A stretch of DNA of 35,686 bases from a virus, in the IMG/VR virus record IMGVR_UViG_3300025687_004874, positions 1-35,686 of that record; one strand, written 5' to 3'. The position numbers and the translations under genes were made by a program. The notes below the pieces were generated by a model, which was not told the DNA's origin, made no database searches, and saw only the letters and a list, made by a program, of their open reading frames with translations. Of the stretch, positions 16,801 to 35,686 are shown in pieces (positions within the stretch are counted from its first letter, which is position 1; the number at the start of each line of letters is the position of its first letter).

Positions 16801-19800
16801 AGTGTAACAGTAGCAGCACCAACTGCAATTGCTGCGCAAGCAACAGCTACAGCAACAATTGGCGGTGATCAAGTACAAAGTATCAGTGTTGACCAACCGG
16901 GTTATATGTATCAAACTGTACCAAATGTTACAATCACTCCAGCAGCTCCAACAGCAGGCAATAACGCAGCAGCAACAGTTGCACTAGACACAACTACTGT
17001 AGGTTTTGATGGTGTTGATGGTGATGGTGATGGTTTTGATGCCGTAGCATTTGACACAGAAGGTGGCATTGGCACATTTACTATTCTTGTCGACGGCGAT
17101 GGATATACATCTGCTCCTGTAGTTACTATCAGTGCACCTGACATCAGTGGTGGTACTCAAGCAACTGCATCTGCTACTGTAAGCGGTGAATCTGCGCCAT
17201 TATATGCAGGCCAAGGTCGTGTGGTATCTATTACAGTTACTGAACCGGGTTCAGGATACTCTACTGCGCCAACAGTGAGTATTGCTGCACCAGATTCAAC
17301 TATTAATCACGGTACCGGCGCAACAGCAACAGCAACACTAGATGATACAGCAGTTATTAGTATTACTGTTAGTAATGGCGGTAGTTATTATGATATTGCG
17401 CCAACTATTTCTATTGATCCACCAACTACAGTTACTACTGCTACAATAGATGCTATCGTAAGCGGAGGAGTTGTCACAGGATTTACCATTACCGACAACG
17501 GTTGGGGTTACTTAGAAACTCCAAGCATTACTATTGCTGCTCCAAACGTTACTCCAGTAACAGCAGCATTTACAGCAAACTTAACCGGCGATGCTGTAAC
17601 AAGTTTAACAATTGACACAGCAGGTGCAGGTTACTTAACGGCACCAACACTTACAATCGCAGCAGATCCAAGTGTAGCAAATGACATTGCTACTGGTACT
17701 GCGGTAATGACAGACGGCAATGTGCTTAGTGTAACTATCGATAACCCAGGAGCAAACTATACGTCTGCACCAGTAGTAACATTCAGTGCGTCAACTGGCA
17801 CAGCTAGTCACGGAACTGGCGCGACTGCTACTGCGGTAGTAGTCAATGAGCAAGTAGTTGGAATTAACATTACCAATGCCGGTACTGGATATGACCTAGC
17901 ACCAGATGTTGTTATTCAAGCACCGGCTCGTACAACCAGACGTGCAACAGGTACGCCGGTTGTTGTTGGTGGATCAGTTACTGATATTATTATTACTGAT
18001 CCAGGGTTTGGATATTTGCGCACACCAACTGTAACAATTGGTAATCCAAGCGATATTGACCCAGACGCCGACATTGTTGGTGGTGAATTTATTGATGTAT
18101 ACAATTCACACGCACCAGAAGAACTTGTGCCTGGCGCAATTTTTGACACACTAGATCTAAAAGTCTACACACGTTCAGGATATGATTACTCGGGCAATGG
18201 TCATGGGTTTGAAGTTAAAAGCCGTGCTTATGTGAATCCAGGTGCGGGCAACACAGTTTCCTGGGATGGATTAATTAAAAATCCAGCAGAAATTGTAGTA
18301 TGCAATCTAGACACTGGCGCACGCTTATACGAGAACATAAACTACGCTGTTGATTGGGCTGACAAAACCATACAGCTTAACAGCGGATTAGCTACACTAG
18401 ATAGAGTTAAATTATTTGTATACGGTGTAGGTGGTGGAAATCAACTATTCCGTAATTCTTACAGTGGAGCAGACTTTGCTAACACCTTGACGGTACCGGT
18501 TGCATATACTGACATTGATGATATGCTAATTCTAGTTAACGGAGAAGAAATTTCAAGCTATAGCTATGCTGAAGGTGCATTCATTAGCGATACTGTGATT
18601 ACATTTAACAATAACTATACCAGCAACGATTATATCAGTCTTGTTGTATTTGGCTCTAATCCAAGCGAAGATGGATCTACCATAACTGATCTATCTTACA
18701 GCTATCCAGAAACAGAACTGTTTACTTGCGATGGATCAACTACCGCATTTACTCTAACAGTGAGCACAGCCGGTAAAAATGCTGAAAACTTGATTGTTGA
18801 ACACAACGGACTACGTTTACAACCGGCTACTGCAAGAAGACACATTGGAGATGGTTCAAGTATAACAACTTACGAATTACCACTTGGTGACGAAACCGGT
18901 ATTGATATGACTGAAGTTACTGCATCAGATGTTGTAGTTTATGTTAATCAAATCAAACAAACAGATTCAGTTAATTATCAATTGGATCCAGTTGACGACA
19001 GTAGTAACCGTACTATTACCTTCTTAACAGAGGTACCTGGACCATATGACACTGTAGACATCTATGTTACTAAAACAACGGGTCCTGTATTAGAAGGAAT
19101 TCAGCAACCACCATATGCTAGATACACAGTATCAGGAAATACTCTAACTGTAGTTGATGGTTTTGGTTTATCACTGAATGCTGGCGATACAATTGCAGTT
19201 ACAGCTTGGCGAGATGTTAGAGAACAGGATGTATTCACACAAATCTTCAAAGGACCAACAGTAATATCAGAACCAACAAGAGAATTGTTTGATGCATACG
19301 GTTTTGATACAGATTTATTTGATAGAACTACATTTGCTGGCAGTAGCGTGAACTTGTTCAGTTTAGATCGCGCTGTTACTAACAGTGATCGTATGTGGGT
19401 AACACTAAACGGACGCAGATTATCTCCAGCTGAAGAATACGATACTTTTGTTGTAAATAATGCCGGCACCCAGTTATTAATTTCAGGCGGCGTAATTAGC
19501 GATACTGACATAGTAGCAGTTACATCATTTACAAATAGCATTGTTCCAGAATCAATGGGATTCCGTATTTTCAAGGATATGCGTGATAACGTTGCTGTGT
19601 ATAGAAACAATACCAGCAGTCAGACATTCCTAACTCGCACCCTAAAATGGACAGACGATGTTATCTATGTTAACGATGCCAGTAAACTGGGTACACCGAA
19701 TTTAAACGCAGCAATTTTTGGTATTTTAGAAATTAATGGCGAACGCATCACATATCGTGATGTTGATTTGGTCAACAACACGGTTAGTGGATTACGCAGA

Positions 19801-20729: not shown

Positions 20730-22214
20730 ATGGCTTATACTATTAACAAAACAGACGGTACAGTGTTTGCTTCAGTAGCAGACGGTACAGTAAACACATC
20801 ATCAAGCATTACTATTATTGGTAAGAACTATGCTGGTTATGGTGAGTTTTTAGGCGAGAACTTTATTAAACTATTGGAAAATAGTGCAAACAGTACAGCG
20901 CCAAGTGCACCATTGCGTGGTCAAATGTGGTTTGATACGGGCAACGGATTGTTAAAAGTTTACAATGGCACAACCTGGAAAAACCTAGGTGCTGCAACTT
21001 CAAGTACATCACAGCCGTCCAGCAACGTTGCTGGTGATTTGTGGTTTGATTCGACAAACAGTCAGTTAAAAGTGTATGATGGATCAGCATTTATCTTAGT
21101 AGGTCCAGCGTTCACTGCTGGTACTGGTACTTCGGGTGCAATTGTTGACACAATTACTGATACAGGTGCTACTGATCACGTTGTTGTTAAGCTATTTGTT
21201 GAAGACACAATCGTTGCTATGGTAAGCAAAGATGCAACATTTACTCCTGCTAGCACAGTTGATGGAAGCTGGGGATTACAAACAATTAAACCAGGTATTC
21301 AACTAAGCACCGCAGTTTCAAATTCTTATTTTCAAGGTACTGCAACAAACGCAGATACACTAGATAACCTAAATAGCACTGACTTTTTGAGTGCAATTGG
21401 AAACGATACTACAACTGGATCACTTTATGTGTTAAACGACACTGGTTTCCGTGTTGGTGCTGACCAAGACTATCGTATTAGCGTTAGCGGATCAGATGTA
21501 ACCGTACAAAATGCTAATGTCGATGGCGACATTATTTTCCGTGTAAATGACAATAGCGTAGTAACCACTGTTATGACATTAGACGGCGCAACTAGCCGTG
21601 TAATTTTAGCAGGCGATCCAACCACAGCATTAGGCGCTGCAACTAAACAATATGTTGATGCTGCAACTAGTACAGTGGGTGATTTGTTATATCGCGATGG
21701 TACTAACACAATTGCTGGTGTTATTACTCCAGATGGCGACGGAACACGCAACTTTGGCGCATCAGGCACACGTTTTGCTACAATTTACGCAAATGAATTC
21801 AACGGTACTGCAACATCAGCAGAGTACGCTGACTTAGCAGAACGCTTTGAAGCAGATGCTGAGTATGAAGCAGGCACTGTTGTTGAACTAGGTGGCGTTG
21901 CCGAAATTACTCGAGCAGTAGAAGAATTATCAGAAAACGTCTTTGGCGTTATCTCAGACCGTGCAGCGTACTTAATGAACGCAAAAGCAGGTACAAATGC
22001 TACACACCCACCAATCGCTATGAATGGACGTGTGCCAGTTAAGGTTATTGGCCGTGTTAACAAAGGTGATCGCCTAGTTAGCGCAGGCAATGGCTTTGCT
22101 CGTGCAGCACAAGACGGTGAAGCAACAGCACGCAATATTATTGGTCGTGCGCTAAATACTAAAGAGGCAACAGGCGAAGGCACAGTAGAAGCAGTCGTTA
22201 AAATTAATTTTTAA
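20730..22214 (+). CDS. Tail fibre/adhesin-like structural protein
   Basis: This 494-residue protein has the N-terminus MAYTINKTDGT, a conserved region with GKNYAGYGEFLGENFIKLLEN, and two tandem copies of a GxxWFDxxNxxLKVYxGxxW unit near residues 64-90 and 103-128. These occur repeatedly in marine myophage fibre proteins. The middle is beta-rich. A TKQYVDAA element near residue 305, as in many tail fibres, precedes the C-terminal domain (about 355-494), which starts with ATSAEYADLAERFEADAEY and carries GVISDRAAYLMN and GRVPVKVIG. That domain type resembles the intramolecular-chaperone or peptidase-G2-like ends of phage fibres; I cannot verify autocleavage from the sequence. A GGAG at 20716-20719 sits 10 nt before the ATG. 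The likely role is host recognition or a fibre attached to the baseplate. The late-type promoter variant and position after baseplate genes support this. Confidence 0.8.
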   Translation: MAYTINKTDGTVFASVADGTVNTSSSITIIGKNYAGYGEFLGENFIKLLENSANSTAPSAPLRGQMWFDTGNGLLKVYNGTTWKNLGAATSSTSQPSSNVAGDLWFDSTNSQLKVYDGSAFILVGPAFTAGTGTSGAIVDTITDTGATDHVVVKLFVEDTIVAMVSKDATFTPASTVDGSWGLQTIKPGIQLSTAVSNSYFQGTATNADTLDNLNSTDFLSAIGNDTTTGSLYVLNDTGFRVGADQDYRISVSGSDVTVQNANVDGDIIFRVNDNSVVTTVMTLDGATSRVILAGDPTTALGAATKQYVDAATSTVGDLLYRDGTNTIAGVITPDGDGTRNFGASGTRFATIYANEFNGTATSAEYADLAERFEADAEYEAGTVVELGGVAEITRAVEELSENVFGVISDRAAYLMNAKAGTNATHPPIAMNGRVPVKVIGRVNKGDRLVSAGNGFARAAQDGEATARNIIGRALNTKEATGEGTVEAVVKINF

Positions 22215-22297: not shown

Positions 22298-23299
22298 ATG
22301 GCATACGCATCAGGCGATACTATTCTAGACGACCACTATAACATTTTTGTTCAAGGTGGTGCATCAGCAGTAGACAACAACACAGCAAACGTAAACACAA
22401 TTTGGGGCACAGGAACCGGTGATAAGGGATACGGTGCAAGTGGCACACTAGCAACAGTAAGTGCTGGTACAACAATCACAGCAACGCAATGGGTAAACCT
22501 ATTAAACCGTGTTAGCTCTATTGCGAATCACCAAGGTACCTCAATTACTGCAATTTCAAATCCAACTACAGGCGATACTATTAGTGCGTATACAGCATTA
22601 AGTGGTAACATTAGTAGCATTTTTACTAATAGATTAAATTGCGCAGCTAGTGGTACAGACGCAACAACTACTAGTTCAGGTACAAACACTTGGAGAGATT
22701 TACAAACAACTACATTTACTGTATCTTTTTCAAGTGCAAACCAAGCACGCTACTTCTTTAACGCAGGCGGACGTTTAGCACTAACATTTAGTCGTTCAGG
22801 CGGAACAGCAAGTTCAAAGAATACTGGATGGACTAACTTATGCACAGCATGCGGTACAATTTATCTTACTGGTGGTTCAGGTACTGCTACAATTGCAGGT
22901 GGATCATACACTGGTACAAACAAATTAGGTGGCTCGGGTTCAACTTCAACACTAGCAACTACCACGGGCTGGTATGATTTAACTACTTCGTATGTAGAAG
23001 TGTTTAAACAATATGACTCAACTTACCTATATACTGCAAACTATATCAAAGTAGAAGTTGCACGTAATGCAACTAGCACACAATACCTAGTTAAAGTAAG
23101 TTTTGTTGATGCTGCTGACTCAACTGGGTGGGCAGATGGCACATTCAACGACGGTGGCGCACAACTTGACGAAACAGTTGACGGCACATTATCGGCAGTG
23201 ATGACTGTTAAACCACCAGCAACAACTTATATTGGTTCTGCAACGTGGGGCACAGTTTCGGTTTCGAATACTGCAATGGGCGGCGATACTTACGTATAA
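22298..23299 (+). CDS. Probable virion structural protein, beta-rich
   Basis: This 333-residue protein is rich in Thr, Ser, Gly and Ala, with the N-terminus MAYASGDTILDDHYNIFVQGG and a short helix (TATQWVNLLNRVSSIANHQG) near residues 62-83. After that come many short beta segments. It has no signal peptide or membrane segment. Composition, late position after the fibre gene, and the same style of start (ATGGC) as the other structural genes support a virion component such as a fibre tip or collar protein. Proteins with this N-terminus are typical of marine phage genomes and are annotated only as structural or hypothetical. It has an A-rich upstream region with AAAGGGAA about 9 nt before the ATG. 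The gene is the last of the structural module, and two hairpins follow directly. Confidence 0.7.
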   Translation: MAYASGDTILDDHYNIFVQGGASAVDNNTANVNTIWGTGTGDKGYGASGTLATVSAGTTITATQWVNLLNRVSSIANHQGTSITAISNPTTGDTISAYTALSGNISSIFTNRLNCAASGTDATTTSSGTNTWRDLQTTTFTVSFSSANQARYFFNAGGRLALTFSRSGGTASSKNTGWTNLCTACGTIYLTGGSGTATIAGGSYTGTNKLGGSGSTSTLATTTGWYDLTTSYVEVFKQYDSTYLYTANYIKVEVARNATSTQYLVKVSFVDAADSTGWADGTFNDGGAQLDETVDGTLSAVMTVKPPATTYIGSATWGTVSVSNTAMGGDTYV

Positions 23300-23966: not shown

Positions 23967-24139
23967 TTAACAAACGCAGAATATTTCGCACACTGGTTCG
24001 TTGGGCAGATGAACTAAACATTTGGCTTGAAAGTATCAGCGGCGGAAATTTAAAACGTGCTGTGCTAGAAGCAAAGCAAGATCGCACCACAATAGAAGAA
24101 CTTGATCGCACTATTGGAAAAGCATTAGGTATTAAATGA
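23963..24139 (+). CDS. Small 58-aa protein, TTG start
   Basis: This frame fills the space between gp4 and the first glycosyltransferase-like gene. It begins at a TTG that overlaps the gp4 stop (TTTTGA) and ends in TGA within an ATGA overlap with the next gene. The only in-frame alternatives upstream, before a TAA at 23924-23926, are rarer start codons such as ATT or ATA. The product (about MINKRRIFRTLVRWADELNIW...) is probably entirely helical: a basic N-terminus, then a Glu/Arg/Lys-rich amphipathic C-terminus (TTIEELDRTIGKALGIK). Tight overlaps on both sides and clean codon use support a real gene. I do not recognise it. Confidence 0.6.
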   Translation: MINKRRIFRTLVRWADELNIWLESISGGNLKRAVLEAKQDRTTIEELDRTIGKALGIK

Positions 24140-24957
24140 CTCGCGGATTTTTAATTTTTGCGTTTAACAACGAAGTTTTGGACTACTTGGGTCATGCCGT
24201 GTGGATTGCCGACCGAATTGAGCGCATATTAGGATTACCCACTAGTATTGTTACTGACGAAGCAAGTGCTATCACTAAACAAAATGTACAGCATAATTTA
24301 ATAATAACAGAAGCACTAGCAGGTCATCAACGCAATTTTAACATACACGAAGATGGCAATGTTGCTACCTGGAAAAATGTAAATCGTTTTCAGGCATATG
24401 AGCTGAGTCCATACGACGAAACTGTTGTAATCGATGCCGATTACATTGTAAATAGTGGTCAGTTGCTTAACTTGTTTAATTCTCCTGAAGATTTTTTAGT
24501 ACATCGTAAACCCTACGATATCACAGATCGTAAAAGTTTCCAACCATACGATTATTTGCCAAAATATAAATTCCCGCACTACTGGGCAACGGTAATCTTT
24601 TTTAGAAAGTCAGAATTTGCTAAAACAATTTTTAACACAATTCGTATGATACGTGAGAATTATGCGCATTATTCACGTGTGTATAAGTTTAGAAGTAGTC
24701 CTTTTAGAAATGATTACGTTGTTAGTATCGCACTAAGCATTGTGTACGGGCATCGTATTAATAGCATTCCAAAAATTCCTTGGAATATGCCAATGATTGC
24801 AAACAATGCTGATATTATACAACTAGATGATCGTAAATTTGAAATACAGTATCAAAAAAACGTTAACCGAACAGATAAACCAATGCGTGTTATGGTTAAA
24901 GATCACGATATTCATTTCCTTAATAAGTTTTCTTTGGAGAAAATGATCAATGGTTGA
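24136..24957 (+). CDS. GT-A-type glycosyltransferase-like protein 1
   Basis: This 273-residue soluble protein has the order expected for a GT-A fold. A first strand (GFLIFAFNNEVLDYLG) is followed by helices, a second strand near 36-40 (TSIVT) and a D100-A101-D102 motif in ETVVIDADYIV that would bind metal and nucleotide sugar. Then come an acceptor-side region with WATVIFFRK and a C-terminal His segment (DHDIHFLNK). No signal peptide or transmembrane segment is visible. It starts in an ATGA overlap with the 58-aa gene and overlaps the next gene by 8 nt. The DxD placement supports a sugar transferase, but donor and acceptor are unknown, and a non-catalytic GT-A-like protein cannot be excluded. 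Confidence 0.68.
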   Translation: MTRGFLIFAFNNEVLDYLGHAVWIADRIERILGLPTSIVTDEASAITKQNVQHNLIITEALAGHQRNFNIHEDGNVATWKNVNRFQAYELSPYDETVVIDADYIVNSGQLLNLFNSPEDFLVHRKPYDITDRKSFQPYDYLPKYKFPHYWATVIFFRKSEFAKTIFNTIRMIRENYAHYSRVYKFRSSPFRNDYVVSIALSIVYGHRINSIPKIPWNMPMIANNADIIQLDDRKFEIQYQKNVNRTDKPMRVMVKDHDIHFLNKFSLEKMING

Positions 24958-25774
24958 AGCAGAACGCGGCTATTTAATTATGGCGGAAAATACAGACACA
25001 GTTGACTATGTTGACTGCGCTCGCGCCTTAGCACGTTCTCTAAAATATCACACACCCCAAGCAAAAATTTGTTTGGTAACAAGTGCAGATGTTGATGATC
25101 CAGTGTTTGACTATGTAAAACCATTACCGTATGGTGATCAAGCGCCTAATAGTAAATGGAAGTTGCGCAATGATTGGCAAGTTTTTGCAGCTAGTCCGTT
25201 TAGACAAACGATTAAACTTGAAGCAGACATGGTTATTCCGCACAGTATCTGGCATTGGTGGACAATGTTTGAACATCGAGACGTGGTGTTAACAACGGGT
25301 GCACGAAATTATCTAAATCAACCTACACCAGTTAGACATTATCGTAAAATATTTGATTTAAATGGGTTACCGGATGTATATAATGCCGTTACGTACTGGC
25401 GTTTTAGTCGAAATGCACAATACTTTTTTAATGTAGTACAGCATATTTTTGAAAACTGGGCAGCTTTTCAAACCACACTTAAAGGCGGCACCGAAGACCC
25501 AGGAACAACAGATGTTGTGTACGCACTTGCCGCTAAAATTGTGGGCGTAGAACGTGTTACACTTCCGGATACAAGTTATCCAAGTCTTATTCATATGAAA
25601 GGACAAATTAACGGATTAAGTCAGGAAAATTGGACACGTGAATTAATCTGGGAATTAGATGGGTCCAACATTAGAATTAATACAGTTGATCAAGAATATC
25701 CTTTTCATTATAATATTAAAGAATTTAGTAAGGCGTTAAACGAGCACTATGACAAACTTTTGGCAAGCTCTTGA
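24950..25774 (+). CDS. GT-A-type glycosyltransferase-like protein 2
   Basis: This 274-residue protein shares layout with its upstream neighbour. A first strand (GYLIMAENT) leads into a helix with YVDCARALARSLK, a strand KICLVTS, and E91-A92-D93 in IKLEADMVIP at the DxD position. A long conserved core (YNAVTYWRFSRNAQYFF) and DPGTTDVVYALAAK follow. The first acidic residue of DxD is Glu here, a variant tolerated in several GT families. Similar length and motif spacing suggest the two are old paralogues. The ATG at 24950 has GGAGA about 9 nt upstream and overlaps the preceding stop by 8 nt. The 3' end overlaps the next gene by 26 nt. No membrane segments are seen, and the substrate is unknown. 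Confidence 0.66.
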   Translation: MVEAERGYLIMAENTDTVDYVDCARALARSLKYHTPQAKICLVTSADVDDPVFDYVKPLPYGDQAPNSKWKLRNDWQVFAASPFRQTIKLEADMVIPHSIWHWWTMFEHRDVVLTTGARNYLNQPTPVRHYRKIFDLNGLPDVYNAVTYWRFSRNAQYFFNVVQHIFENWAAFQTTLKGGTEDPGTTDVVYALAAKIVGVERVTLPDTSYPSLIHMKGQINGLSQENWTRELIWELDGSNIRINTVDQEYPFHYNIKEFSKALNEHYDKLLASS

Positions 25775-26081
25775 GCAAGTAGATCAAACACAGCCGTTGT
25801 TTGATCTTGAATATCGTTTGTACTATGACGAAAAAACCGGCGAGCCCTTATTTTATACCACACAAGATGAACCCGGTATATACTTAACAGTAGACAAGCA
25901 ATTTTACGAAGAATCTCGATATGATATCTACGTAAAGGATGGTAAAATTGAACGCATTAAGCATGAACCTCTTGGTAAATTAGTGCCAGCAGAAACAGGT
26001 ACATCAACACACCCAAAAGACATTACTATTGTAATGAAATCGTCGACCTATTGGAACACAAAAACATATGAATTTAATTGA
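25749..26081 (+). CDS. Conserved 110-aa protein in glycosyltransferase cluster
   Basis: This small acidic protein starts MTNFWQALEQVDQ and has a beta-rich core (LEYRLYYDEKTGEPLFYTT, then PGIYLTVDKQFYEE and YDIYVKDGKIE). Its Thr-rich tail includes TSTHPKDITIV. Proteins with the pattern YRLYYDExxGxPLFY are familiar as conserved hypothetical proteins in marine phages. No catalytic motif is visible. The gene overlaps the preceding gene by 26 nt and the next by 14 nt, so its production is coupled to the two flanking transferase-like proteins. A partner or small subunit role is possible but unproven. Confidence 0.65.
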   Translation: MTNFWQALEQVDQTQPLFDLEYRLYYDEKTGEPLFYTTQDEPGIYLTVDKQFYEESRYDIYVKDGKIERIKHEPLGKLVPAETGTSTHPKDITIVMKSSTYWNTKTYEFN

Positions 26082-26994
26082 TATTGCAGACCTAGACGTA
26101 GTATATTTGAGCTACGACGAACCACAAAAAGAAGAATTTTGGGTGAAAATCAAAAACATGGTACCCTGGGCAGTTCGTGTTGACGGTGTCAAAGGATCAG
26201 ATGCGGCACACAAAGCCGCAGCGGATGCAAGCACAACAGAACGTTTTATACTAATTGATGGAGATAATTTGCCGGACCCAGAATTCTTCAACATGCAACT
26301 GGAAATAAAAACACCCGATTATGAACGGGCTGTATTTCGTTGGAGAGCTCGCAATCACATTAATGGACTTATGTACGGCAATGGCGGATTAAGTTGTTGG
26401 ACACGCGAATTTATCTATAATATGCGTACACACGAAGCAAGCGATGGTTCAGATGATACGTGTGTTGAGTTTTGCTTTGATCCGTTATATTGGCCCATGC
26501 ATGATTGCTATAGTGTAACATATCCTAACGGCAGTGCATTCCAAGCATGGCGTGCAGGATTCCGCGAAGGTGTTAAAATGTGTTTAGATCGTGGACGCAA
26601 ACCCAGCGAATTAGAATTTAAAGAAAGTGTACACAGTCGCAACCTAGATCATCTAACTATTTGGCATAACGTTGGTATGGATGTTGAAAATGGTGCGTGG
26701 GCTATACTAGGTGCACGACAAGGTACATATATGACTATGTTAGGCGACTGGGACTATCGGGCAGTGCAATGGTTTGACAATTTGACAGACATTTGGACGG
26801 ACACACAACACGAAGATCCAGAAAGAATGATTGAATTATACGGAAAAGATTTAGAAACACGTCTTGACTTGCCAATGAACATATTGAATGCGAAAGCAAG
26901 TGCATTTTTCAAACATCATTATCGCAGCAATTGGCATAATATGGGAACAACTGTGCGAGAAATGGATGTTATTCGCGGACATGAAGGTTGGTAA
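26068..26994 (+). CDS. GT2-like glycosyltransferase family protein
   Basis: This 308-residue protein resembles GT2-like GT-A enzymes. A first strand (DLDVVYLSYDEP), a helix ending in WAVRVDGVKG, and AAHKAAADASTTERF lead into the metal-binding motif D64-G65-D66 of FILIDGDNLPD. Downstream are W-R-A-R-N-x-I-N-G-L-M-Y-G-N-G-G, typical of an acceptor-loop region, and a Trp/His-rich segment (LTIWHNVGMDVENG). The C-terminus (about 250-308) is helical. No transmembrane helix is present. It overlaps the previous gene by 14 nt and meets the first radical SAM gene at TAATG. Of the three transferase-like proteins here, this has the clearest DxD context; donor and acceptor are unknown. Confidence 0.72.
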   Translation: MNLIDIADLDVVYLSYDEPQKEEFWVKIKNMVPWAVRVDGVKGSDAAHKAAADASTTERFILIDGDNLPDPEFFNMQLEIKTPDYERAVFRWRARNHINGLMYGNGGLSCWTREFIYNMRTHEASDGSDDTCVEFCFDPLYWPMHDCYSVTYPNGSAFQAWRAGFREGVKMCLDRGRKPSELEFKESVHSRNLDHLTIWHNVGMDVENGAWAILGARQGTYMTMLGDWDYRAVQWFDNLTDIWTDTQHEDPERMIELYGKDLETRLDLPMNILNAKASAFFKHHYRSNWHNMGTTVREMDVIRGHEGW

Positions 26995-28406
26995 TGGAAC
27001 AAAATAAAGGAGACGAAGTAGACAAGGACTTTAAGTCAAAGTTCTTGAGCGATGCAGAAATTGCACAGCAAAAGTTAGATACAGTAAGTCCAAGTTTCTG
27101 CTTGGCTAAATGGAAACAAGTAAGTTTACATTTAACAAACGGCATGAATAACTCATGCTATCACCCGCCTTTACACAAAATTCCTGTAGAAGAACTTGCC
27201 ATAAATCCTAGCAAATTGCATAACACTAATTATAAGAAGCAGCAACGTGAGAAAATGATTCATGGTGAGCGTCCAGAAGAATGTTTTTATTGCTGGGCAA
27301 TGGAAGATAATGGTAAACTCAGTGATCGACATTATCGATCAGGCGAACCATGGGCCATTGAAAGGTTTGATGAAGTTGTTGCTGATCCAATGGCAGATAC
27401 TAATCCTGCATACGTTGAAGTAAATTTTAACAGTGCTTGTAACTTAGAGTGTAGTTATTGTTCACCTCAATTTAGCAGCTCGTGGATGCGACAAGCAAAG
27501 GAACACGGAGCATACCCTACTAGCCAACCACACAACGATCCTGCATATTTTCAAGGCAACAGGCGTCCAATCCCGCATTCAGAATACAACCCGTATGTAG
27601 AAGCATTCTGGGAATGGTGGCCAGATTTGTATAAAGATCTAAAACACTTTCGCATGACCGGCGGTGAGCCGCTAATGGATCGAAATACATTCCGTGTATT
27701 TGATTATGTATTAGACCACCCAAAACCAGACTTACACTTAAACGTAACCAGTAACCTAAGTGTTGAACAGAAATTATGGGACAAGTACTTGGATTATGTT
27801 AAGCGTATTTGTAATGAAGGCAAAAATGTAGAACACTTTATGCAGTATGTTAGTCTTGATGGATTTGGTACACAAGCAGAATATATGCGTGCCGGATTAG
27901 ATTTTAATTTACTGTGGGATCGTGTAAATGAATTCTTAACAGAAGTACCTTACAGAAGCAGTCTAACATTTATTGTTACGATGAATAATCTATCAGTGAC
28001 AAGCCTAGAGCATTTGTTTACTGGAATTTATGGGTTACGACAATTATACAGTAACACATATCAGCGTGTTTGGTTTGATACTCCTGTATTACATACTCCT
28101 AAATGGCAGAGCATGCGATTGCTTCCAGATATGTATGCAGACAAACTAGAAGATTTAATGATGTGGATGATGGAACACGTAGAAACACTCAGTACACGCT
28201 TTAAAGGATTCAAAGACTACGAAATTAAAAGATTAGATCGCGATATTGCTTGGATGCGAGAACCTGCAGAAAATAAAGAACAACACATGGCGGATTTTTA
28301 TCGTTTCTTTAATGAATACGATCGCCGACATGGCTATGATTTCTTAAAAACATTCCCTGAGATGACTACCTGGTGGAATGAGTGCAAATATTACGCACAA
28401 CAATAA
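26994..28406 (+). CDS. Twitch-domain radical SAM protein 1
   Basis: This 470-residue protein has the radical SAM cluster motif C149-x3-C153-x2-C156 (CNLECSYC) and the SAM-binding G-G-E at 223-225 (RMTGGEPLMD). Ahead of the core is a cysteine module: C36 in F-C-L-A-K-W, C55 in NNSCYHPP, and C97-x2-C100 in EECFYCW. These are placed like auxiliary Fe-S ligands of SPASM/twitch proteins but N-terminal to the core. Here the position of the usual Cys-Cys pair reads Cys-Tyr-His, as in the next gene. I chose the ATG at 26994, in a TAATG junction with AAGG 6 nt upstream, rather than an in-frame TTG six bases earlier. The substrate is unknown. It opens a run of five related genes. Confidence 0.88.
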   Translation: MEQNKGDEVDKDFKSKFLSDAEIAQQKLDTVSPSFCLAKWKQVSLHLTNGMNNSCYHPPLHKIPVEELAINPSKLHNTNYKKQQREKMIHGERPEECFYCWAMEDNGKLSDRHYRSGEPWAIERFDEVVADPMADTNPAYVEVNFNSACNLECSYCSPQFSSSWMRQAKEHGAYPTSQPHNDPAYFQGNRRPIPHSEYNPYVEAFWEWWPDLYKDLKHFRMTGGEPLMDRNTFRVFDYVLDHPKPDLHLNVTSNLSVEQKLWDKYLDYVKRICNEGKNVEHFMQYVSLDGFGTQAEYMRAGLDFNLLWDRVNEFLTEVPYRSSLTFIVTMNNLSVTSLEHLFTGIYGLRQLYSNTYQRVWFDTPVLHTPKWQSMRLLPDMYADKLEDLMMWMMEHVETLSTRFKGFKDYEIKRLDRDIAWMREPAENKEQHMADFYRFFNEYDRRHGYDFLKTFPEMTTWWNECKYYAQQ

Positions 28407-28427
28407 CAAACCAGTTAAGTAAACAAT

Positions 28428-29786
28428 ATGAGTAAATTACGTAAGCCTGGTCGAGAAACAGACTTAGAAGTTAAACGTTGGATTGATGAATTTAGCACTT
28501 CATTTTGTGCTGCTAAATGGTATAATGCTACTATTTGGCTAGGATCTGGCATGACTACTAGCTGCCATCACCCACTGCCACATCACGTTAGTGTCGACGA
28601 AGTAACGGCTAATTATAAAGCATTACATAATACACCAAAGAAAAAACAAGAACGACAGATGATGCAAAACAGCGAACGACCAAAGGGTTGTGAATACTGT
28701 TGGAAGATCGAAGACATTGGTCGTGATAACATTTCTGACCGTGTATACAAAACTGTAATTTACGACGAATGGGACGTGGTTACAGCAATGGCCGCAGACC
28801 CAGAAACCGACATTGATTTAAAAACACTTGAAATTGCGTTTGACAGAACATGTCAGTTTAGTTGTTCGTATTGTAATCCAGCGTTTAGCACCAGTTGGGT
28901 AACTGATTTAAAGAAACACGGTCCTTATGAAGGTTTGATTTCCGATGGCCGCAACCATTTCACCCACACACATGATTCTGCACAACTGTTTAAACCAAAA
29001 GAAACTAATCCTTATGTAGAAGCATTCTTCAAATGGTGGGAATCAGATTTACATAAAACGCTACAGGAATTGCGGTTAACCGGCGGCGAGCCAATGATGA
29101 GCCCGCATACTATTCGACTTATTGATTGGTACATCGAAAATAAAACCGATGTATCATTTGCACTAAACAGCAATCTTGGGATTGAAGATGACAAAATTGA
29201 TAAACTAATTGAAGCAAGTCACAACATCAAAGACTTTCAGTTGTATACATCGCAGGAAAGCATGGGTGCTCATGCTGAATATATTCGAGATGGGTTAAAC
29301 TGGGAACAATGGGAGCGCAATGTTCGTCGTGTTATTACCGAAGGCAAGGTAGATGGCTTCCATGTTATGTGTACGATTAATGCATTGTGTTTAGAATCGT
29401 TAACTGAATTTTTAGATTGGATGATGAACCTAAAACGAGAATTTGGTAAGAATTACCCAACTTTTACACTAAACATTTTACGTTTTCCAAGTTTTCAATC
29501 TCCGTTAGTGTTACCAGATGATCTGCGTATGGATTATGCATACAAACTAGATACTTGGCTAGAAAACAACGCATATAAGAATTTAATATTACATGAAATG
29601 GAAGTTAATCAAGTACAACGGTTAATTGATTATTTAGACGTTGTTAAGACTCCGCATTCGGATACGTTTGATATGCCAGCGTTGCATAATGACTTTAAGA
29701 AATTTTATGCGCAATATGATCAACGCCGCGGAAAGAATATTGTAGAAACATTTGAACACATTGGAGCATGGTATAGTGGGTTATAA
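28428..29786 (+). CDS. Twitch-domain radical SAM protein 2
   Basis: This 452-residue protein is the closest relative of its upstream neighbour. It carries C142-x3-C146-x2-C149 (CQFSCSYC), G-G-E at 219-221 (RLTGGEPMMS), and the N-terminal module C27 (F-C-A-A-K-W), C46 (TTSCHHPLP) and C88-x2-C91 (KGCEYCW). Shared features with protein 1 are the Cys-x-His form of the second module element, N-P-Y-V-E-A-F before the G-G-E, and a C-terminal helix with YDxRxG. The 21-nt gap before its ATG is the largest in the downstream array and holds no hairpin. It overlaps the next gene by 11 nt. A radical reaction on an unknown substrate is inferred from the cluster motif. Confidence 0.88.
   Translation: MSKLRKPGRETDLEVKRWIDEFSTSFCAAKWYNATIWLGSGMTTSCHHPLPHHVSVDEVTANYKALHNTPKKKQERQMMQNSERPKGCEYCWKIEDIGRDNISDRVYKTVIYDEWDVVTAMAADPETDIDLKTLEIAFDRTCQFSCSYCNPAFSTSWVTDLKKHGPYEGLISDGRNHFTHTHDSAQLFKPKETNPYVEAFFKWWESDLHKTLQELRLTGGEPMMSPHTIRLIDWYIENKTDVSFALNSNLGIEDDKIDKLIEASHNIKDFQLYTSQESMGAHAEYIRDGLNWEQWERNVRRVITEGKVDGFHVMCTINALCLESLTEFLDWMMNLKREFGKNYPTFTLNILRFPSFQSPLVLPDDLRMDYAYKLDTWLENNAYKNLILHEMEVNQVQRLIDYLDVVKTPHSDTFDMPALHNDFKKFYAQYDQRRGKNIVETFEHIGAWYSGL
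29763..29766 (+). promoter_or_regulatory. Shine-Dalgarno that selects a GTG start
   Basis: GGAG at 29763-29766 lies 9 nt before GTG at 29776. The alternative in-frame TTG codons at 29752 and 29761 lie before or on the edge of this site, and no ATG occurs until codon 40 of the GTG-started frame. The site therefore supports GTG 29776 as the start of the third radical SAM gene. Confidence 0.6.
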
Positions 29787-31065
29787 TTATAATAGTTGGG
29801 AGCCAGTACGAGTTAAACCAGAAGACTTAACCGCTACAGAAACAGAATTTTTGCGAGATAGTAAAACATTTTGCATCTATCCCTGGATACACATGCATAC
29901 TTACCCAACTGGTGAAACATGGCCCTGTTGTCATGCTGAAATGGCAGTGGGTCCAGTGGGCACAACTAAAGAACACTCATTAGTAGAGCTTGCTAACAGT
30001 GAACGCATGCGCCAATTGCGTTTAGACATGTTAGAGGAAAACAAGAACTCTTATTGTACACGATGCTACGAACAAGAAGAAGCCGGATTCTTTTCAGGGC
30101 GCAAGTCAGCAAACAAGCATCATGGGCATCATATTAATCGAGTAGCACAGACTGATTTAAACACTGGTATGTTTGCTGATTTTAATATGATATATTGGGA
30201 TGTTCGCTTTAGCAACTTATGTAATTTAAAATGTCGTAGTTGCGGGCATATCTTTAGTTCGCAGTGGTATAAAGATCAAATTGCACTCGCAGGCCCAGAA
30301 TATGCTAAAAACAACAAGCAGTTAAACTATGCAGGCAAATTTGAAACAGATTTACTAGAACAAGTATTAGAACACATTGATTACGTAGAACAAATTTACT
30401 TTGCTGGCGGTGAACCCCTTGTTATGGACGAACATTATGCAATCCTCGAAGAACTCGTCAAACGTGGTCGAACCGATGTACGGTTAATTTATAACACAAA
30501 CTTTACACAACTTAAACTAAAAAATAAATCAGCATTAGAATATTGGAAGTTGTTTCCTAATGTTAGTATTGGCGCAAGTCTGGATGCAATGGAGCAGCAC
30601 GCAGAATATATACGTGCAGGTACTAAGTGGACAGATGTTGAACAGAATATTCAAGACTTAAGACGTGAATGTCCACATGTTGATTTTTACATTAGCTGCA
30701 CACTAAGTATTTTTAACGCATTGCATATTACGAGTTTTCATCGTAGTTGGGTAGACAAAGGATATATTTTCCCACAAGATTTTAATGTTAATATATTACA
30801 GGATCCTGCACATTACCGAATTGACATTGCTACACCAGAATACAAAGATCTAATACGCGAACAATTTGAACGACACTTAGCGTGGTTAGAACCACAAGAT
30901 CAACTAAATCGTGCTACAACCGGGTATCGATCTGCATTAAACTTTTTAAATAATGACAATTCTCAACTGTTACAAAAGTTTTGGGACAAAACTCGCCAAT
31001 TAGATATTATTCGTAACGAACATGTGTTAGACTATATTCCAGAATTATCAGCATTAAAACCATGA
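29776..31065 (+). CDS. Twitch-domain radical SAM protein 3, GTG start
   Basis: This 429-residue protein contains C149-x3-C153-x2-C156 (CNLKCRSC) and G-G-E at 211-213 (YFAGGEPLVMDE). The N-terminal module is C33 in F-C-I-Y-P-W, C51-C52 in T-W-P-C-C-H, and C94-x2-C97. It belongs with proteins 4 and 5, which keep adjacent cysteines in the module where proteins 1 and 2 have Cys-x-His. The likely product is a SAM-dependent radical enzyme with one core cluster plus an auxiliary cluster. The start is GTG 29776, supported by a GGAG 9 nt upstream. It overlaps the previous gene by 11 nt and the next by an ATGA junction. A His-rich stretch (NKHHGHHINR) sits just before the core. Confidence 0.87.
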   Translation: MGYNYNSWEPVRVKPEDLTATETEFLRDSKTFCIYPWIHMHTYPTGETWPCCHAEMAVGPVGTTKEHSLVELANSERMRQLRLDMLEENKNSYCTRCYEQEEAGFFSGRKSANKHHGHHINRVAQTDLNTGMFADFNMIYWDVRFSNLCNLKCRSCGHIFSSQWYKDQIALAGPEYAKNNKQLNYAGKFETDLLEQVLEHIDYVEQIYFAGGEPLVMDEHYAILEELVKRGRTDVRLIYNTNFTQLKLKNKSALEYWKLFPNVSIGASLDAMEQHAEYIRAGTKWTDVEQNIQDLRRECPHVDFYISCTLSIFNALHITSFHRSWVDKGYIFPQDFNVNILQDPAHYRIDIATPEYKDLIREQFERHLAWLEPQDQLNRATTGYRSALNFLNNDNSQLLQKFWDKTRQLDIIRNEHVLDYIPELSALKP

Positions 31066-32267
31066 ATTTACCTAACAAAAAATTTTGTGTTCTTCCCTGG
31101 ATTAGTTTAGAAACCAGTCCTATTGGCACTGTACGTCCATGTTGTTTGTATGATGGAGAAGTACAAAACGGTCAGAGTGTAAAGTTTGATTTAAACAAGG
31201 ACAATTTAAAAGATATTCAACGTTCAGAATATATGAATCAATTGCGCGGTAAGTTTTTACAAGGTGAACAGCCTGCAGAATGCAGACGTTGTTGGGCAGA
31301 GGAAGATGCTAATCGCACAAGTAAACGCATGCATACACTAGATCGTCTTAAAAACATACTAAAAGACGAAACAGAGTGGACTGCTGAACCTAAGCCGTTG
31401 ATGTTTTTAGATTTAAAACTAGGAAACATTTGTAACATTGCGTGTCGTATTTGTGGATCATGGAGTTCTAGCACATTTGCTGGCGAAGAAATTAAGGAAT
31501 TGCCATTTGAAAAACGCAAGGAAAGTTTTGCGTATCAAATGAATCGCCGCGGTAATTGGCCTCGCAAGAGTTTGACATTTTGGGAAGACCTTGAAGCACA
31601 AGCACCACATATTCGTTACATTGAATTTACTGGCGGTGAGCCTTTTATGATTCAAGAGCATTTTGATTTCTTGCAATATCTAATCAATAATGATTATGCT
31701 CAAAACATTGAAATACACTATAACACTAACACAACATTATATCCAGATGATGATACCGTCTGGAAGCCATTTAAGCATGTCGAAGTAGCATTTAGCATTG
31801 ATGATTTGCGCGAACGTTTTGAATATCAACGCTATGGCGCATCGTGGAAAACACTTAACAAGAATTTAGAACGCTTTAAGAAACTACGTGAACGCAGTAA
31901 TAACATCTCATTACAAGTATGCTCTACAGTAAACGTGTTTAATGTAATGTACCTAGAAGAACTTGCTAATTGGATTGATGCGCAAGATTTTGATTTTGTT
32001 TATTGGAATATGTTACATGATGCGCCGCAACACTGCATAACCAGTTTGCCTAAAGCAGCAAAACTTCGTGCTACTGAACGACTGCTAAGTGCAACAGTAT
32101 CAGAAAAACATCATAAAGAATTTAAGAACATTGCATTCTTTATGAATAGCCGAGACACAGATCCAAAATTACTAATCGAAGATAGCGTGCGCATGGACAA
32201 ACGTCGTAATCAATCTATGCATGATTATTTGCCAGAGCTAGCAGAGTGTTTGCATGAAAAAACCTAA
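31062..32267 (+). CDS. Twitch-domain radical SAM protein 4
   Basis: This 401-residue protein is the shortest of the five. It has C124-x3-C128-x2-C131 (CNIACRIC), G-G-E at 191-193 (EFTGGEPFMIQEHF), and the module C9 (F-C-V-L-P-W), C27-C28 (V-R-P-C-C-L-Y-D-G) and C74-x2-C77 (AECRRCW). This form, F-C-x-x-P-W...P-C-C...C-x-x-C, is the textbook arrangement of N-terminal twitch radical SAM proteins. The C-terminus is basic and helical, ending in M-H-D-Y-L-P-E-L-A. It starts in an ATGA overlap and itself overlaps the fifth gene by 14 nt. The substrate is unknown. Confidence 0.89.
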   Translation: MNLPNKKFCVLPWISLETSPIGTVRPCCLYDGEVQNGQSVKFDLNKDNLKDIQRSEYMNQLRGKFLQGEQPAECRRCWAEEDANRTSKRMHTLDRLKNILKDETEWTAEPKPLMFLDLKLGNICNIACRICGSWSSSTFAGEEIKELPFEKRKESFAYQMNRRGNWPRKSLTFWEDLEAQAPHIRYIEFTGGEPFMIQEHFDFLQYLINNDYAQNIEIHYNTNTTLYPDDDTVWKPFKHVEVAFSIDDLRERFEYQRYGASWKTLNKNLERFKKLRERSNNISLQVCSTVNVFNVMYLEELANWIDAQDFDFVYWNMLHDAPQHCITSLPKAAKLRATERLLSATVSEKHHKEFKNIAFFMNSRDTDPKLLIEDSVRMDKRRNQSMHDYLPELAECLHEKT

Positions 32268-33582
32268 AGAGAAACCTGAATTCTTATGTATGGCCCCATG
32301 GACACATACATATCTTTCCCCGCAAAGCGAAAGACGTCTGTGCTGCGCATCAAGAGAGCCCGCACAGAATTTTACACAGTATATCGACACTGCTAGTGGT
32401 ACTGGTAATTATAACCCACTTACACTAGAAGAATGGTGGAACTCAGAGCACGTGCGTGCAGTACGTGTTAAAATGATGCAGGGCGATATTCCAGAAGAGT
32501 GTCAAGTATGCAATCACAAACTCTTAAACACAGATGTGTACCGCAGTTATTTTTGGCACTTAACTTCTCACCACTACGACAAAATCTGGGAAACCACCGA
32601 CGAAACAGGATATACAACAATGAAACCCGTAAGTTGGGATTATCGTTTCTCTAACTTATGTAACTTTAAATGTCGTATGTGCGGTGACATGCTTTCTAGT
32701 AGTTGGGAATCCGAAGAAAAGAAACACAACATGTGGGATAAAACCAATCCCAAAAATAACTGGATGATCCCCGAAATACGTTCGCAAATACAAGAGTTTC
32801 AAACCAACGTCGTTGATCGAGAGTTTTCAGATGCAGTAGAAGAAAATCGTGTTGAAGAAGTTTATTGGGTAGGCGGCGAGCCATTAATGTTTGAAGAACA
32901 CTGGCGTTATATGAATCGTATTGTTGAATTGGGTCAAGGACATCGTGTGTATGCACGGTACAATACTAACCTATCACAAGTAGACTATCGAGGGTTAAAC
33001 TTATATAAAAGTATACTTATGAACCTACGCGATTGGCAAATCTGTGCAAGTATTGATGGCACAGGTGCAATAGGTGAATATATTCGTACAGGATTAAAAT
33101 GGAATCAGTTCTTACAAAATTACAAAGAAGGACAACGAATACAAACAAATGACCGCCAAATGCGTTTGGACTTTACACTTACTCTGCCAGGACTGTTTGA
33201 AATAGAAAATATGTTCCGGTTGAGCAAGGAATTAAATACACAGTTACTTGCAAAAGTTACCTTTGCATTTAGCCCAGACATTGTAATGAGTCCTCTTGCT
33301 TTGCCTAGGCACATACTTGATCGTTATGTTTCGTCTGTATTGGAAAAACTTAGACCACACGCTGACAGGCATCAACAACCATTGATTGATGTCTTGGAAC
33401 AACTTTTGAATAGACCTACACTAGAACAGCAGTGGCCAGATGAATACGCAGCGGGTATGCGTCTAGGCAAAGCAAGAATTTTAGCACTAGAAGAAATACG
33501 TGAACAACCCATTACAATGGCAGAAATATTAGAACAGGATTCTGAAATACATGAGTGGTGGAAAAATATTAGACAAGATTAA
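32254..33582 (+). CDS. Twitch-domain radical SAM protein 5
   Basis: This 442-residue protein has C136-x3-C140-x2-C143 (CNFKCRMC), G-G-E at 207-209 (YWVGGEPLMFEEHW), and the module C12 (L-C-M-A-P-W), C30-C31 (R-L-C-C-A-S) and C83-x2-C86 (EECQVC). It shares W-D-x-R-F-S-N-L-C-N before the cluster with protein 3 (WDVRFSNLCN against WDYRFSNLCN), so these two are probably close paralogues. The insertion between cluster and G-G-E, and a C-terminal extension of about 100 residues with leucine-rich helices, are its distinctive parts. It is the last radical SAM gene of the run; the next gene overlaps it by 32 nt or follows after 1 nt, depending on the start chosen. Confidence 0.88.
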   Translation: MKKPKEKPEFLCMAPWTHTYLSPQSERRLCCASREPAQNFTQYIDTASGTGNYNPLTLEEWWNSEHVRAVRVKMMQGDIPEECQVCNHKLLNTDVYRSYFWHLTSHHYDKIWETTDETGYTTMKPVSWDYRFSNLCNFKCRMCGDMLSSSWESEEKKHNMWDKTNPKNNWMIPEIRSQIQEFQTNVVDREFSDAVEENRVEEVYWVGGEPLMFEEHWRYMNRIVELGQGHRVYARYNTNLSQVDYRGLNLYKSILMNLRDWQICASIDGTGAIGEYIRTGLKWNQFLQNYKEGQRIQTNDRQMRLDFTLTLPGLFEIENMFRLSKELNTQLLAKVTFAFSPDIVMSPLALPRHILDRYVSSVLEKLRPHADRHQQPLIDVLEQLLNRPTLEQQWPDEYAAGMRLGKARILALEEIREQPITMAEILEQDSEIHEWWKNIRQD

Positions 33583-34642
33583 AATGACGTTGCGTAATTA
33601 TGCAACTGGAGATTTACATGCTGTTTATTTTGATGTATACGACAGTTCATTGGCACGCAAATGGTTAGCGGCACTAAATGATTTACTAAAACGTGAGTTA
33701 CATCTAGAAAAAAATTACTGTTTTTTTGGTTTTGCGAACGGTGATCGTAACGGCGAACTAATAGTTAACGAGATTAACCGTGTAATTGATTACATCAACG
33801 GTAGTGATTTAGGTTATCATATAGATGATCATTATACACTAGCAAACTCGATTGCGCTAGAAGGCGAAGTGGGCGATAAGAAACCTGGATTAAGATTAAA
33901 TCACGAACATTTTAATATGTTGCATAGATACTTTGAAGATCTTCAAGGTACCACTCAAAACTTATCGCCATATTTTTTAAAAGCAAACGATGAACAACGT
34001 TGGTATATTAGACAAACTAATTTGCTATGCCATGAATTTGAATCATGGGCGTTAAGTAATAGACAAAGTGTTAATGCTCCAATGTGGCAACGTCCAAGCC
34101 AAGTTATGTGCTGGATTAATGCTCCAAAGTTTGAGCTCGACGACAACGACTTCGAAGCGTTCGGTATTGAAACACTAGCACGGCCGCTCGGCGGTGTATT
34201 TGTTGGTGTTAACAAAGCCGTTGGTAAGCACCATTGGGAAGTTTATCAAGATGAAGGTCGGCATGGAAAAATGTTAGATGAGCTAACAACAACTACGTTA
34301 CGAGGACAGACACTAGCAGCCGGCGACTTTGATATCGAATGGGCCAATAACCCAGGAGAATTTCCGTGGATGCAACAAGACATTGTTGGATTTAGACAAT
34401 GGTTAATTGATAATGGAATTGATCCAGAGGATAAAAATTTAACAATCGGCCATCCTTTAATTGGTCAAGTGGATCTAGAACGCAGTTTTAATAGCACAAA
34501 TTACCAAGACATCTGGGATACACTGTATAAGTATTTAGATGTTTACAGTATTCGCACATCAGATGCGTATGCTGAATACAATTATCACTGGAGTGATCCA
34601 GATTTTGTTGACAGACAAATACAAGCAATAGGAAAACATTAA
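33551..34642 (+). CDS. Unrecognised 363-aa protein with His-rich core
   Basis: I do not recognise this family. The sequence is soluble with no signal peptide or membrane segment. Striking elements (numbered from the first ATG) are Y-H-I-D-D-H-Y at 89-95, N-H-E-H-F-N-M-L-H at 117-125 and L-L-C-H-E-F-E at 158-164. These are three His/Glu/Asp clusters that could bind a metal, although that is inference. Later parts are acidic and aromatic (KFELDDNDFEAFG, then KHHWEVYQDEGRHG). Two starts are possible. ATG 33551 overlaps the fifth radical SAM gene by 32 nt and has AGGA 10 nt upstream. ATG 33584 (TAA-A-ATG) gives 352 residues but has no clear ribosome-binding site. I list the first. Its place in the array suggests it serves the same pathway. 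Confidence 0.72.
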   Translation: MSGGKILDKIKMTLRNYATGDLHAVYFDVYDSSLARKWLAALNDLLKRELHLEKNYCFFGFANGDRNGELIVNEINRVIDYINGSDLGYHIDDHYTLANSIALEGEVGDKKPGLRLNHEHFNMLHRYFEDLQGTTQNLSPYFLKANDEQRWYIRQTNLLCHEFESWALSNRQSVNAPMWQRPSQVMCWINAPKFELDDNDFEAFGIETLARPLGGVFVGVNKAVGKHHWEVYQDEGRHGKMLDELTTTTLRGQTLAAGDFDIEWANNPGEFPWMQQDIVGFRQWLIDNGIDPEDKNLTIGHPLIGQVDLERSFNSTNYQDIWDTLYKYLDVYSIRTSDAYAEYNYHWSDPDFVDRQIQAIGKH

Positions 34643-34743
34643 TGAATATTTTTAAACGACTATGGAACAAGATTAAACTTGAAATCCGTTACAGAAAGAA
34701 ACTAAAGGAATTACGCAAAAGAGATCCGTTTATTTACAAATGA
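34642..34743 (+). CDS. 33-aa very basic microprotein
   Basis: This tiny gene links its neighbours by overlap at both ends (TAATG at its start, ATGA at its end). The product begins MNIFKRLWNKIK and ends KELRKRDPFIYK. It would form one amphipathic helix with a strongly positive charge, about 14 Lys/Arg of 33 residues against about 3 acidic residues, and a conserved-looking D-P-F-I-Y tail. I recall similar tiny basic proteins with this tail in marine T4-like phages. Perfect fit in the overlap chain argues for real translation. A nucleic-acid-binding, membrane-binding or partner-peptide role is possible; none is shown. Confidence 0.7.
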   Translation: MNIFKRLWNKIKLEIRYRKKLKELRKRDPFIYK

Positions 34744-35495
34744 GCATTGTTGTTGCAGGATACGGGTTTGTTGGACATGCTGTTGCTGCTAAATTTAGCA
34801 AGCACATGGATATTATTGTTGTTGACCCAAAACTTGGACCAGAAACAGCAGCAGATTACGCAGATGTAGAAGGCGTTATCGTTTGCGTTAACACACCAAG
34901 CGCAGCAGATGGTTCGTGTGATTATTCACGTGTAGCACACGTGTTGGAAACTGTAGACAGCGCCATTCCTGTTGTAATTAAATCAGCAGTAGATGTTAAT
35001 GGTGTATTTGCGTTAAAGAAACAATTCTCCGACCATCAGATTACATACAGTCCAGAATTTTTACGTGCAGATACAGCAGACAGAGATTTTGCCACACAAG
35101 ATTACGTAATACTAGGTGGTGGAGATCAGGATTTTTGGCTTGATGTTTGGACACGTGCTTTTCCTTATATCGAAGCACATTTAGTTACAGACATTGAAGC
35201 AAGTCTAGTTAAGTATGCTGAAAATAGCTTTTTAGCAACTAAAGTAAGTTTCTTTAATCAACTATACGATTTGTGTGAAAACATAGGTGCAGACTTTGAA
35301 AGTGTGCGCTATAGTTTGTGCAGAGATGAACGTATTAATCCTGACCATTCGTACGTTACTACAGAACGCGGCTGGGGCGGACACTGTTTCCCCAAAGATA
35401 CCACAGCAATGGTTAAACAAGCACGCGAAGCAGGTGCGCCATTTACGATATTAGAGCAAGCGTGCATATACAACAACAAGGTAAGAAATGGGTAA
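34740..35495 (+). CDS. UDP-sugar 6-dehydrogenase-like protein, short form
   Basis: This 251-residue protein matches the N-terminal and central domains of UDP-glucose/GDP-mannose dehydrogenases. The Rossmann NAD-binding G-Y-G-F-V-G is at 7-12, V-N-T-P...D-G-S-C-D at 50-61, and S-P-E-F-L-R-A at 104-110. The catalytic region has K158 and N162 (LVKYAENSFLATK), and the catalytic-cysteine motif G-G-H-C-F-P-K-D is at 213-220 (C216). These enzymes oxidise a nucleotide sugar to a uronic acid in two NAD-dependent steps. Bacterial enzymes are about 390-450 residues; here the C-terminal UDP-binding domain is absent. The frame ends cleanly 20 residues after the motif region, so this is a short form and not visibly broken. 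It starts in an ATGA overlap and overlaps the carbamoyltransferase gene by 8 nt. Confidence 0.85.
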   Translation: MSIVVAGYGFVGHAVAAKFSKHMDIIVVDPKLGPETAADYADVEGVIVCVNTPSAADGSCDYSRVAHVLETVDSAIPVVIKSAVDVNGVFALKKQFSDHQITYSPEFLRADTADRDFATQDYVILGGGDQDFWLDVWTRAFPYIEAHLVTDIEASLVKYAENSFLATKVSFFNQLYDLCENIGADFESVRYSLCRDERINPDHSYVTTERGWGGHCFPKDTTAMVKQAREAGAPFTILEQACIYNNKVRNG

Positions 35496-35686
35496 CATAC
35501 TAGGAGTAAGTGCAGGGTTTCACGATGCTGGCGTAAGTCTTATTAATAGACAAGGCGATATATTGTTTGCTAGTCATAGTGAACGCTACAGTAAAGCCAA
35601 GCATGATGCACACTTGTGTGCAGGTATTTTAGACGATGCAGAAATGTATGGTGATATAGATACTGTTGCATACTATGAGAACCATT
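35488..35686 (+). CDS. Carbamoyltransferase (NodU/CmcH type), 3'-partial
   Basis: Only the first 66 codons lie in the window; the frame is open to the right edge. The N-terminus (MGNILGVSAGFHDAGVSLIN, then I-L-F-A-S-H-S-E-R-Y-S-K-x-K-H-D) is the start of the ASKHA/TobZ-type domain of O-carbamoyltransferases: G-x-S-A-x-x-H-D-A, then S-E-R-x-S-x-x-K. Complete members are usually near 550-600 residues and transfer carbamoyl groups from carbamoyl phosphate to hydroxyls on sugars or antibiotics. The gene overlaps the sugar dehydrogenase by 8 nt, which supports work on a sugar-derived product. The ATG at 35488 is internal to the AAATGG context at the end of the previous gene. Confidence 0.85.
   Translation, partial: MGNILGVSAGFHDAGVSLINRQGDILFASHSERYSKAKHDAHLCAGILDDAEMYGDIDTVAYYENH

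Follow-up and report, generated by a model that had tools for sequence, protein, structure and literature searches.

Five radical SAM genes with an N-terminal twitch domain form a conserved row in an uncultivated lineage of jumbo T4-like phages

The DNA analysed in this study, called the window below, is the IMG/VR virus record IMGVR_UViG_3300025687_004874 (35,686 nt). It carries five adjacent radical SAM genes, here named A to E, which are anciently diverged paralogues held together in order under purifying selection. Tail genes adjoin the row, and so do two genes resembling glycosyltransferase family 8 (GT8). An uncultivated lineage of jumbo T4-like (aquatic) phages carries the five genes as a fixed module, which lies in the tail and host-recognition part of the genome. 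We regard the module as fixed in the lineage because of the positional orthology of the genes, their order, the complete sets, the low ratio of nonsynonymous to synonymous substitution (dN/dS), and the presence of the family in contigs found through the gp6-type gene. The phage genes in the window include gp25-type and gp6-type baseplate wedge genes, a gp4-like head-closure protein and a giant protein of 5033 aa. The gp6-type protein was closest to those of Phosso, Atu_ph07 and other jumbo T4-like phages (34–36% identity), and no cultured phage matched the window at the DNA level.

Family, motifs and conservation of the five genes

The five proteins scored 285–390 bits against the NCBIfam model NF033640 (N_Twi_rSAM, twitch domain-containing radical SAM protein), whose curated cut-off is 170 bits, and their membership in this family is therefore not due to chance. 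A scan of 14 control genomes with the same model gave nothing above the cut-off. The first-pass annotation of the window had described five adjacent genes, each with a C-x3-C-x2-C motif, a GGE motif and an N-terminal cysteine module of the twitch type, and the alignment bore this out. Four N-terminal cysteines, C-x3-C-x2-C and GGEP (5/5) occur in that order in A–E, with 24 invariant columns, and 87–98% of the proteins in each clade keep the four-cysteine module, C-x3-C-x2-C and GGE in order. As for the twitch type, Pfam SPASM matched the N-termini of C, D and E, and positions 9–82 of a profile model built from 100 relatives matched the C-terminal twitch of BtrN (E 1e-5). Judged from these matches, the twitch domain is placed before the radical SAM core in A–E rather than after it, and radical SAM activity is predicted from the motifs. 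The AlphaFold model of D has a radical SAM fold. Viperin identity (NF038283) was considered and rejected, as A–E scored 16.8–30.3 bits against a cut-off of 180. In gene A, an in-frame ATG at 26994, taken as the start in the first-pass annotation, is a possible start.

In scans of IMG/VR, B had at least 600 matches, D had 136 and A had 94. The locus set comprised 251 loci, sorted into 176 viral contig groups that together encode 864 distinct radical SAM proteins. It was drawn mostly by radical SAM queries, and the completeness of the virus records is not established, so that counts of absence are weak. In a fast tree, every window protein fell within its own clade of 135–170 proteins, with weak support for clades D and E. 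A second tree, in which the genes of 14 contigs were labelled by position only, required 7 label changes, where at least 5 are needed in any case and shuffled labels needed 49 on average; a single contig (L235) accounted for every misplaced row, and clades A and B were joined at an SH-aLRT value of 100. Such a tree had been suggested in the first-pass annotation for telling a conserved cassette from recent duplication. The genes cluster with their positional counterparts in other genomes and not with their neighbours, and recent tandem duplication was accordingly rejected in favour of a conserved cassette. Because of this positional clustering and the cysteines kept in the relatives, the row can be read neither as unrelated families without synteny nor as proteins whose core cysteines are lost in close relatives, the two outcomes that the annotation had set against its own proposal.

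The order A-B-C-D-E was found in 104 of the 113 groups having all five clades, with a single strand in 112 of them. Touching or overlapping genes were seen for B–C in 108/127 and for C–D in 101/123 cases; in the window, A and B are 21 nt apart and the later genes overlap (Table 1). All five classes were present in 92 of the 100 loci with both flanks visible, and the other eight had open reading frames (ORFs) beyond the labelling size range through fusion, extension or splitting. One quarter of the intact cassettes hold six or seven copies. The median dN/dS was 0.055–0.086 over all clades, indicating purifying selection. One contig carries A and B as a single ORF of 903 aa (L249:6721-9432), whose joint is frameshift-like and could be an assembly error, and another carries C and D as a single ORF of 851 aa (L232:11344-13899). 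The fixed order, the overlaps, the unbroken set of five and these single fusion ORFs support joint action of A–E, for which the serial or combinatorial chemistry and the multi-enzyme complex put forward in the first-pass annotation would be putative forms. Sampling bias from the radical SAM queries was considered as a cause of the apparent cassette and was countered by a baseplate-gene query: the family was present in 11 of the 11 gp6-found contigs with at least 23 kb downstream, a small control in which three contigs were already among the radical SAM set.

Genes beside the row

The nine genes at 24136–34642 (Table 1) include only 21 non-coding nt, too few to accommodate a free precursor peptide of the kind used for ribosomally synthesised and post-translationally modified peptides (RiPPs). 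No small precursor peptide gene was found in this interval, and no repeated CH motif (CHxSCH-type) was found in the window or its relatives. A larger protein substrate would still be compatible with the missing precursor gene.

Table 1. Coordinates of the five radical SAM genes and their neighbours in the window
Feature	Position	Strand	Evidence and occurrence
GT8-like putative glycosyltransferase 1	24136..24957	+	128–132/176 groups; joint profile with the 24950 protein
GT8-like putative glycosyltransferase 2	24950..25774	+	133 groups (pair range 128–134/176); joint profile with the 24136 protein
Conserved 110-aa protein	25749..26081	+	117/176 groups; alignment
Highly conserved 308-aa protein, D-G-D-N motif	26068..26994	+	140–150/176 groups; mean column identity 61%
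Radical SAM A	26988..28406	+	NF033640 325.8 bits; clade A, 170 proteins; dN/dS 0.055
Radical SAM B	28428..29786	+	NF033640 307.3 bits; sister clade of A; at least 600 IMG/VR relatives
Radical SAM C	29752..31065	+	NF033640 389.9 bits; Pfam SPASM and Radical_SAM above cut-off; 35-nt overlap with B
Radical SAM D	31062..32267	+	NF033640 338.9 bits; 4-nt overlap with C; AlphaFold model pLDDT 96.3
Radical SAM E	32254..33582	+	NF033640 284.8 bits; clade E, 135 proteins; 14-nt overlap with D
Conserved 363-aa protein, predicted cyclophilin-like fold with helical insert	33551..34642	+	118/176 groups; 32-nt overlap with E; model pLDDT 90.7
UDP-glucose/GDP-mannose dehydrogenase family protein (UGD), short form	34740..35495	+	Pfam PF00984 E 1e-26; variable gene, 10 groups
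O-carbamoyltransferase-type gene, 5' part, cut by window end	35488..35686	+	107 groups; Carbam_trans_N and Carbam_trans_C in full-length relatives

Pfam gave nothing significant for the GT8-like pair, and the only match of its joint profile was glycogenin (GT8), weak (E 0.0015) and uniform. In 9/9 large records, the GT8-like genes number exactly two per genome, and both stand at the cassette. The window copy of the 110-aa protein matched nothing in cultured phages or PHROGs; a carrier or a chaperone is possible. The 308-aa protein is possibly a GT-A-type transferase, a label that we infer, since the protein had no match in Pfam or PDB. For the 363-aa protein, the cyclophilin-like assignment comes from the fold similarity of its predicted structure in VIA-align (Z 9.1, 3.5 Å, 143/166 residues), where cyclophilins dominate the top rows; no PDB sequence matched, Foldseek against PDB was not significant (E above 1), and prolyl isomerase activity is putative. 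The tail-region genes at 20730–22214 and 22298–23299 are conserved near the cassette in 100–114 groups. Variable genes lie between A and B and after E, among them family 7, SGNH, epimerase and amidinotransferase genes; the amidinotransferase-like family occurs in 48/176 groups, with no member in the window, whose end is cut. The 5033-aa protein (4885–19986), encoded directly after the gp6-like wedge gene, contains many repeated GSGY-type segments and is possibly a VrlC-like baseplate protein.

Possible substrates of the enzymes

The reading that we favour, although its chances fall somewhat short of even, is that the cassette tailors glycans of the virion or of the host surface, with a separate step for each of its radical SAM enzymes. 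In this view, the GT8-like pair and the neighbouring transferase-type proteins would assemble a glycan, either on a tail protein of the virion or on the surface of the host. Each of A–E would contribute one C-H activation of its own, for instance an epimerisation, a dehydrogenation or a deoxygenation, acting on the glycan or on sugar precursors. The radical SAM enzymes BtrN and NeoN perform such C-H activation steps in aminoglycoside synthesis, BtrN being the sugar enzyme 2-deoxy-scyllo-inosamine dehydrogenase, and the chemistry of A–E may be similar. An auxiliary [4Fe-4S] cluster would sit in the N-terminal twitch, close to the substrate. The product would differ among phages through the variable neighbours (carbamoyltransferase, SGNH esterase, epimerase, amidinotransferase), and this variation could give varied receptor specificity or superinfection exclusion. 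We infer the transferase activity, the substrate, the reaction types, a complex and the role in host recognition.

Several observations argue for this reading: the single-copy GT8-like pair at the cassette with its weak, uniform glycogenin matches; the carbamoyltransferase in 107 groups, with SGNH, epimerase, UGD and amidinotransferase genes as variable neighbours; the BtrN-like twitch; and the lack of a free precursor peptide together with the non-redundancy of A–E. The surroundings of distant homologues and the sugar-transferase-fold proteins and amidinotransferase of the Campylobacter phage CP220 module, compared below, argue in the same direction. Among cultured phages, A–E had only distant matches (Vibrio phages K566/K567, 22–24%); in K566 the neighbours are two GT8 genes, GT4, LpxC and PagP. 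On Azospirillum and Methylomagnum plasmids, distant homologues lie within surface-polysaccharide islands. No bacterial relatives were confirmed in the genome-contig search.

Other observations weigh against a glycan substrate. The transferase assignments are weak and have no Pfam matches, and the cyclophilin-like partner points to protein substrates, as do the SPASM-type radical SAM genes that Atu_ph07 and Phosso carry at the equivalent site. A fold search with D does not separate peptide enzymes from sugar or small-molecule enzymes and does not resolve the substrate class, because both kinds tie (Z scores: SkfB 12.5, viperin 12.5, BlsE 12.3, anSME 12.2). Copies of the family outside the cassette bear on the question as well. 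The large records of the lineage have 5–17 NF033640 matches, and 7–13 are above the cut-off in nine records examined whole. These extra copies adjoin gp47/gp46-type, UvsW-type helicase and UvsX/SSB genes. The scattered copies (n=39) showed no significant association with SGNH or family-7 genes (p above 0.2), and the sugar association is therefore a property of the cassette only and not of the whole family. Genes beside gp47-like and gp46-like recombination nuclease genes were found in six loci (L351, L352, L354, L355, L359 and L360) and stem from at least two separate insertions, one C-like and one D-like. Another gene of the family, in a virus record of 194 kb, has a cytochrome oxidase subunit I gene (Pfam COX1, E 1e-160; L362:10329-11894) approximately 1.2 kb away; the latter is possibly an auxiliary metabolic gene, or the contig may be chimeric.

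The main rival, which we consider rather unlikely though it deserves attention, is protein modification: A–E would modify residues of a tail or baseplate protein encoded just upstream, in a RiPP-like manner, and the cyclophilin-like protein would be a folding helper or substrate presenter. This agrees with the position of the cassette inside a structural operon beside conserved tail genes, with the top profile match of the family, the RiPP maturase SkfB (E 2.7e-10), with the predicted fold of the 33551 protein, and with the Atu_ph07/Phosso site, where the adjacent protein ends in a CHxSCHxSCHxSRSRR tail. However, no CHxSCH-type motif or precursor peptide was found in the window or its relatives, the GT8-like pair is obligate, and the Atu_ph07 enzymes are outside NF033640. 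A role in host take-over or counter-defence through small-molecule or nucleotide chemistry, with a viperin-like product, a cofactor or a modified nucleotide as the outcome, is improbable. In its favour, viperins rank high in both the fold and the profile comparisons, and the extra copies have recombination and late-transcription genes around them, but A–E reached only 17–30 bits against the viperin cut-off of 180, and the cassette stands in the tail region with sugar genes. Least probable of all is an accessory expansion, in which radical SAM genes pile up as selfish, movable genes with no shared pathway: the scattered genes, the independent insertions near gp47/gp46 and the cassettes with six or seven copies would suit it, whereas the order fixed in 104/113 groups, the five classes in 92/100 flanked loci, the positional orthology and dN/dS under 0.1 stand against it.

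Radical SAM enzymes are costly and usually oxygen-sensitive catalysts. A phage lineage retaining five such genes in a set order, together with several scattered copies, must gain substantially from them. Should A–E indeed act in decorating virions or the host surface, aquatic phages would have a new phage–host recognition chemistry and would offer new enzymes. A bolder form of the glycan-tailoring reading, which we hold to be doubtful, is a five-step phage radical pathway, universal in one uncultivated jumbo lineage, that would furnish the virion with a novel radical-tailored glycan or glycoprotein; every class would have its own step, and the cap put on the product by the variable neighbours would differ from phage to phage. 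The idea can be tested with the help of the five-clade framework and of the parallel modules known from cultured phages (Vibrio K566, CP220, Atu_ph07).

Comparison with known systems

A–E share with the NF033640 family scores above its cut-off and an N-terminal twitch followed by the radical SAM core; the family name gives no function, and the ordered five-clade cassette exceeds the family definition. The twitch of BtrN is detectably similar to that of A–E but C-terminal. The SPASM/twitch RiPP maturases (SkfB, CteB) and anSME share the radical SAM core fold (Z 11.6–12.5), whereas the maturases have a C-terminal auxiliary-cluster domain and a precursor peptide, in contrast to the N-terminal domain and missing precursor of A–E.

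The first-pass annotation took one or two radical SAM genes to be the usual number in a phage, an assumption that fails for T4-like phages. For example, the Campylobacter phages CP220/CPt10 carry 11–12, including an interchangeable five-gene module (2010, PMC2853527), and the T4-like genome TARA_ERS488813_N000010 has 12 (PMC5332604). The CP220/CPt10 module resembles the cassette in belonging to T4-like phages and in its five clustered radical SAM genes with adjacent sugar-transferase-fold genes, the GT8-like label in the window being a weak profile match. In CP220, two annotated sugar-transferase-fold genes and an amidinotransferase accompany the module, the latter distantly related to the one in some cassettes of this lineage. 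Nevertheless, the radical SAM proteins of CP220 are shorter and without an N-terminal twitch match, and they reach at best 30.9 bits against the NF033640 cut-off of 170; we do not class the cassette as a CP220/CPt10-type member because the radical SAM family differs. Moreover, the CP220/CPt10 cluster is swapped between close phages, whereas the A–E cassette is fixed throughout its lineage. Pelagimyophages carry radical SAM cassettes in their host-recognition cluster (2020, PMC7029224). Like the TARA genome, they are T4-like aquatic phages with many radical SAM genes or with such genes in the tail-fibre/glycosyltransferase region; the two sources give presence or number only, so the likeness to A–E is one of description and not of family or gene order. 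The proposal of an undescribed system thus stands in part: five-radical-SAM modules of T4-like phages have been known since 2010 and pelagimyophage cassettes since 2020, but no description of the N-twitch five-gene cassette and its conservation was found in the open-access literature searched.

The radical SAM enzymes of Atu_ph07 do not belong to NF033640. At the site equivalent to that of the cassette, the C-terminus of Atu_ph07 gp170 (L259:23119-24009) is CHSSCHASCHNSRSRR and that of the Phosso protein (L260:41627-42547) is CHTSCHASCHSSRSRR. The radical SAM genes beside them are SPASM-type and resemble the maturases DynA, PapB and DarE, and gp170 and its Phosso counterpart, encoded in the virion region, are candidate radical-SAM-modified structural proteins in cultured phages.

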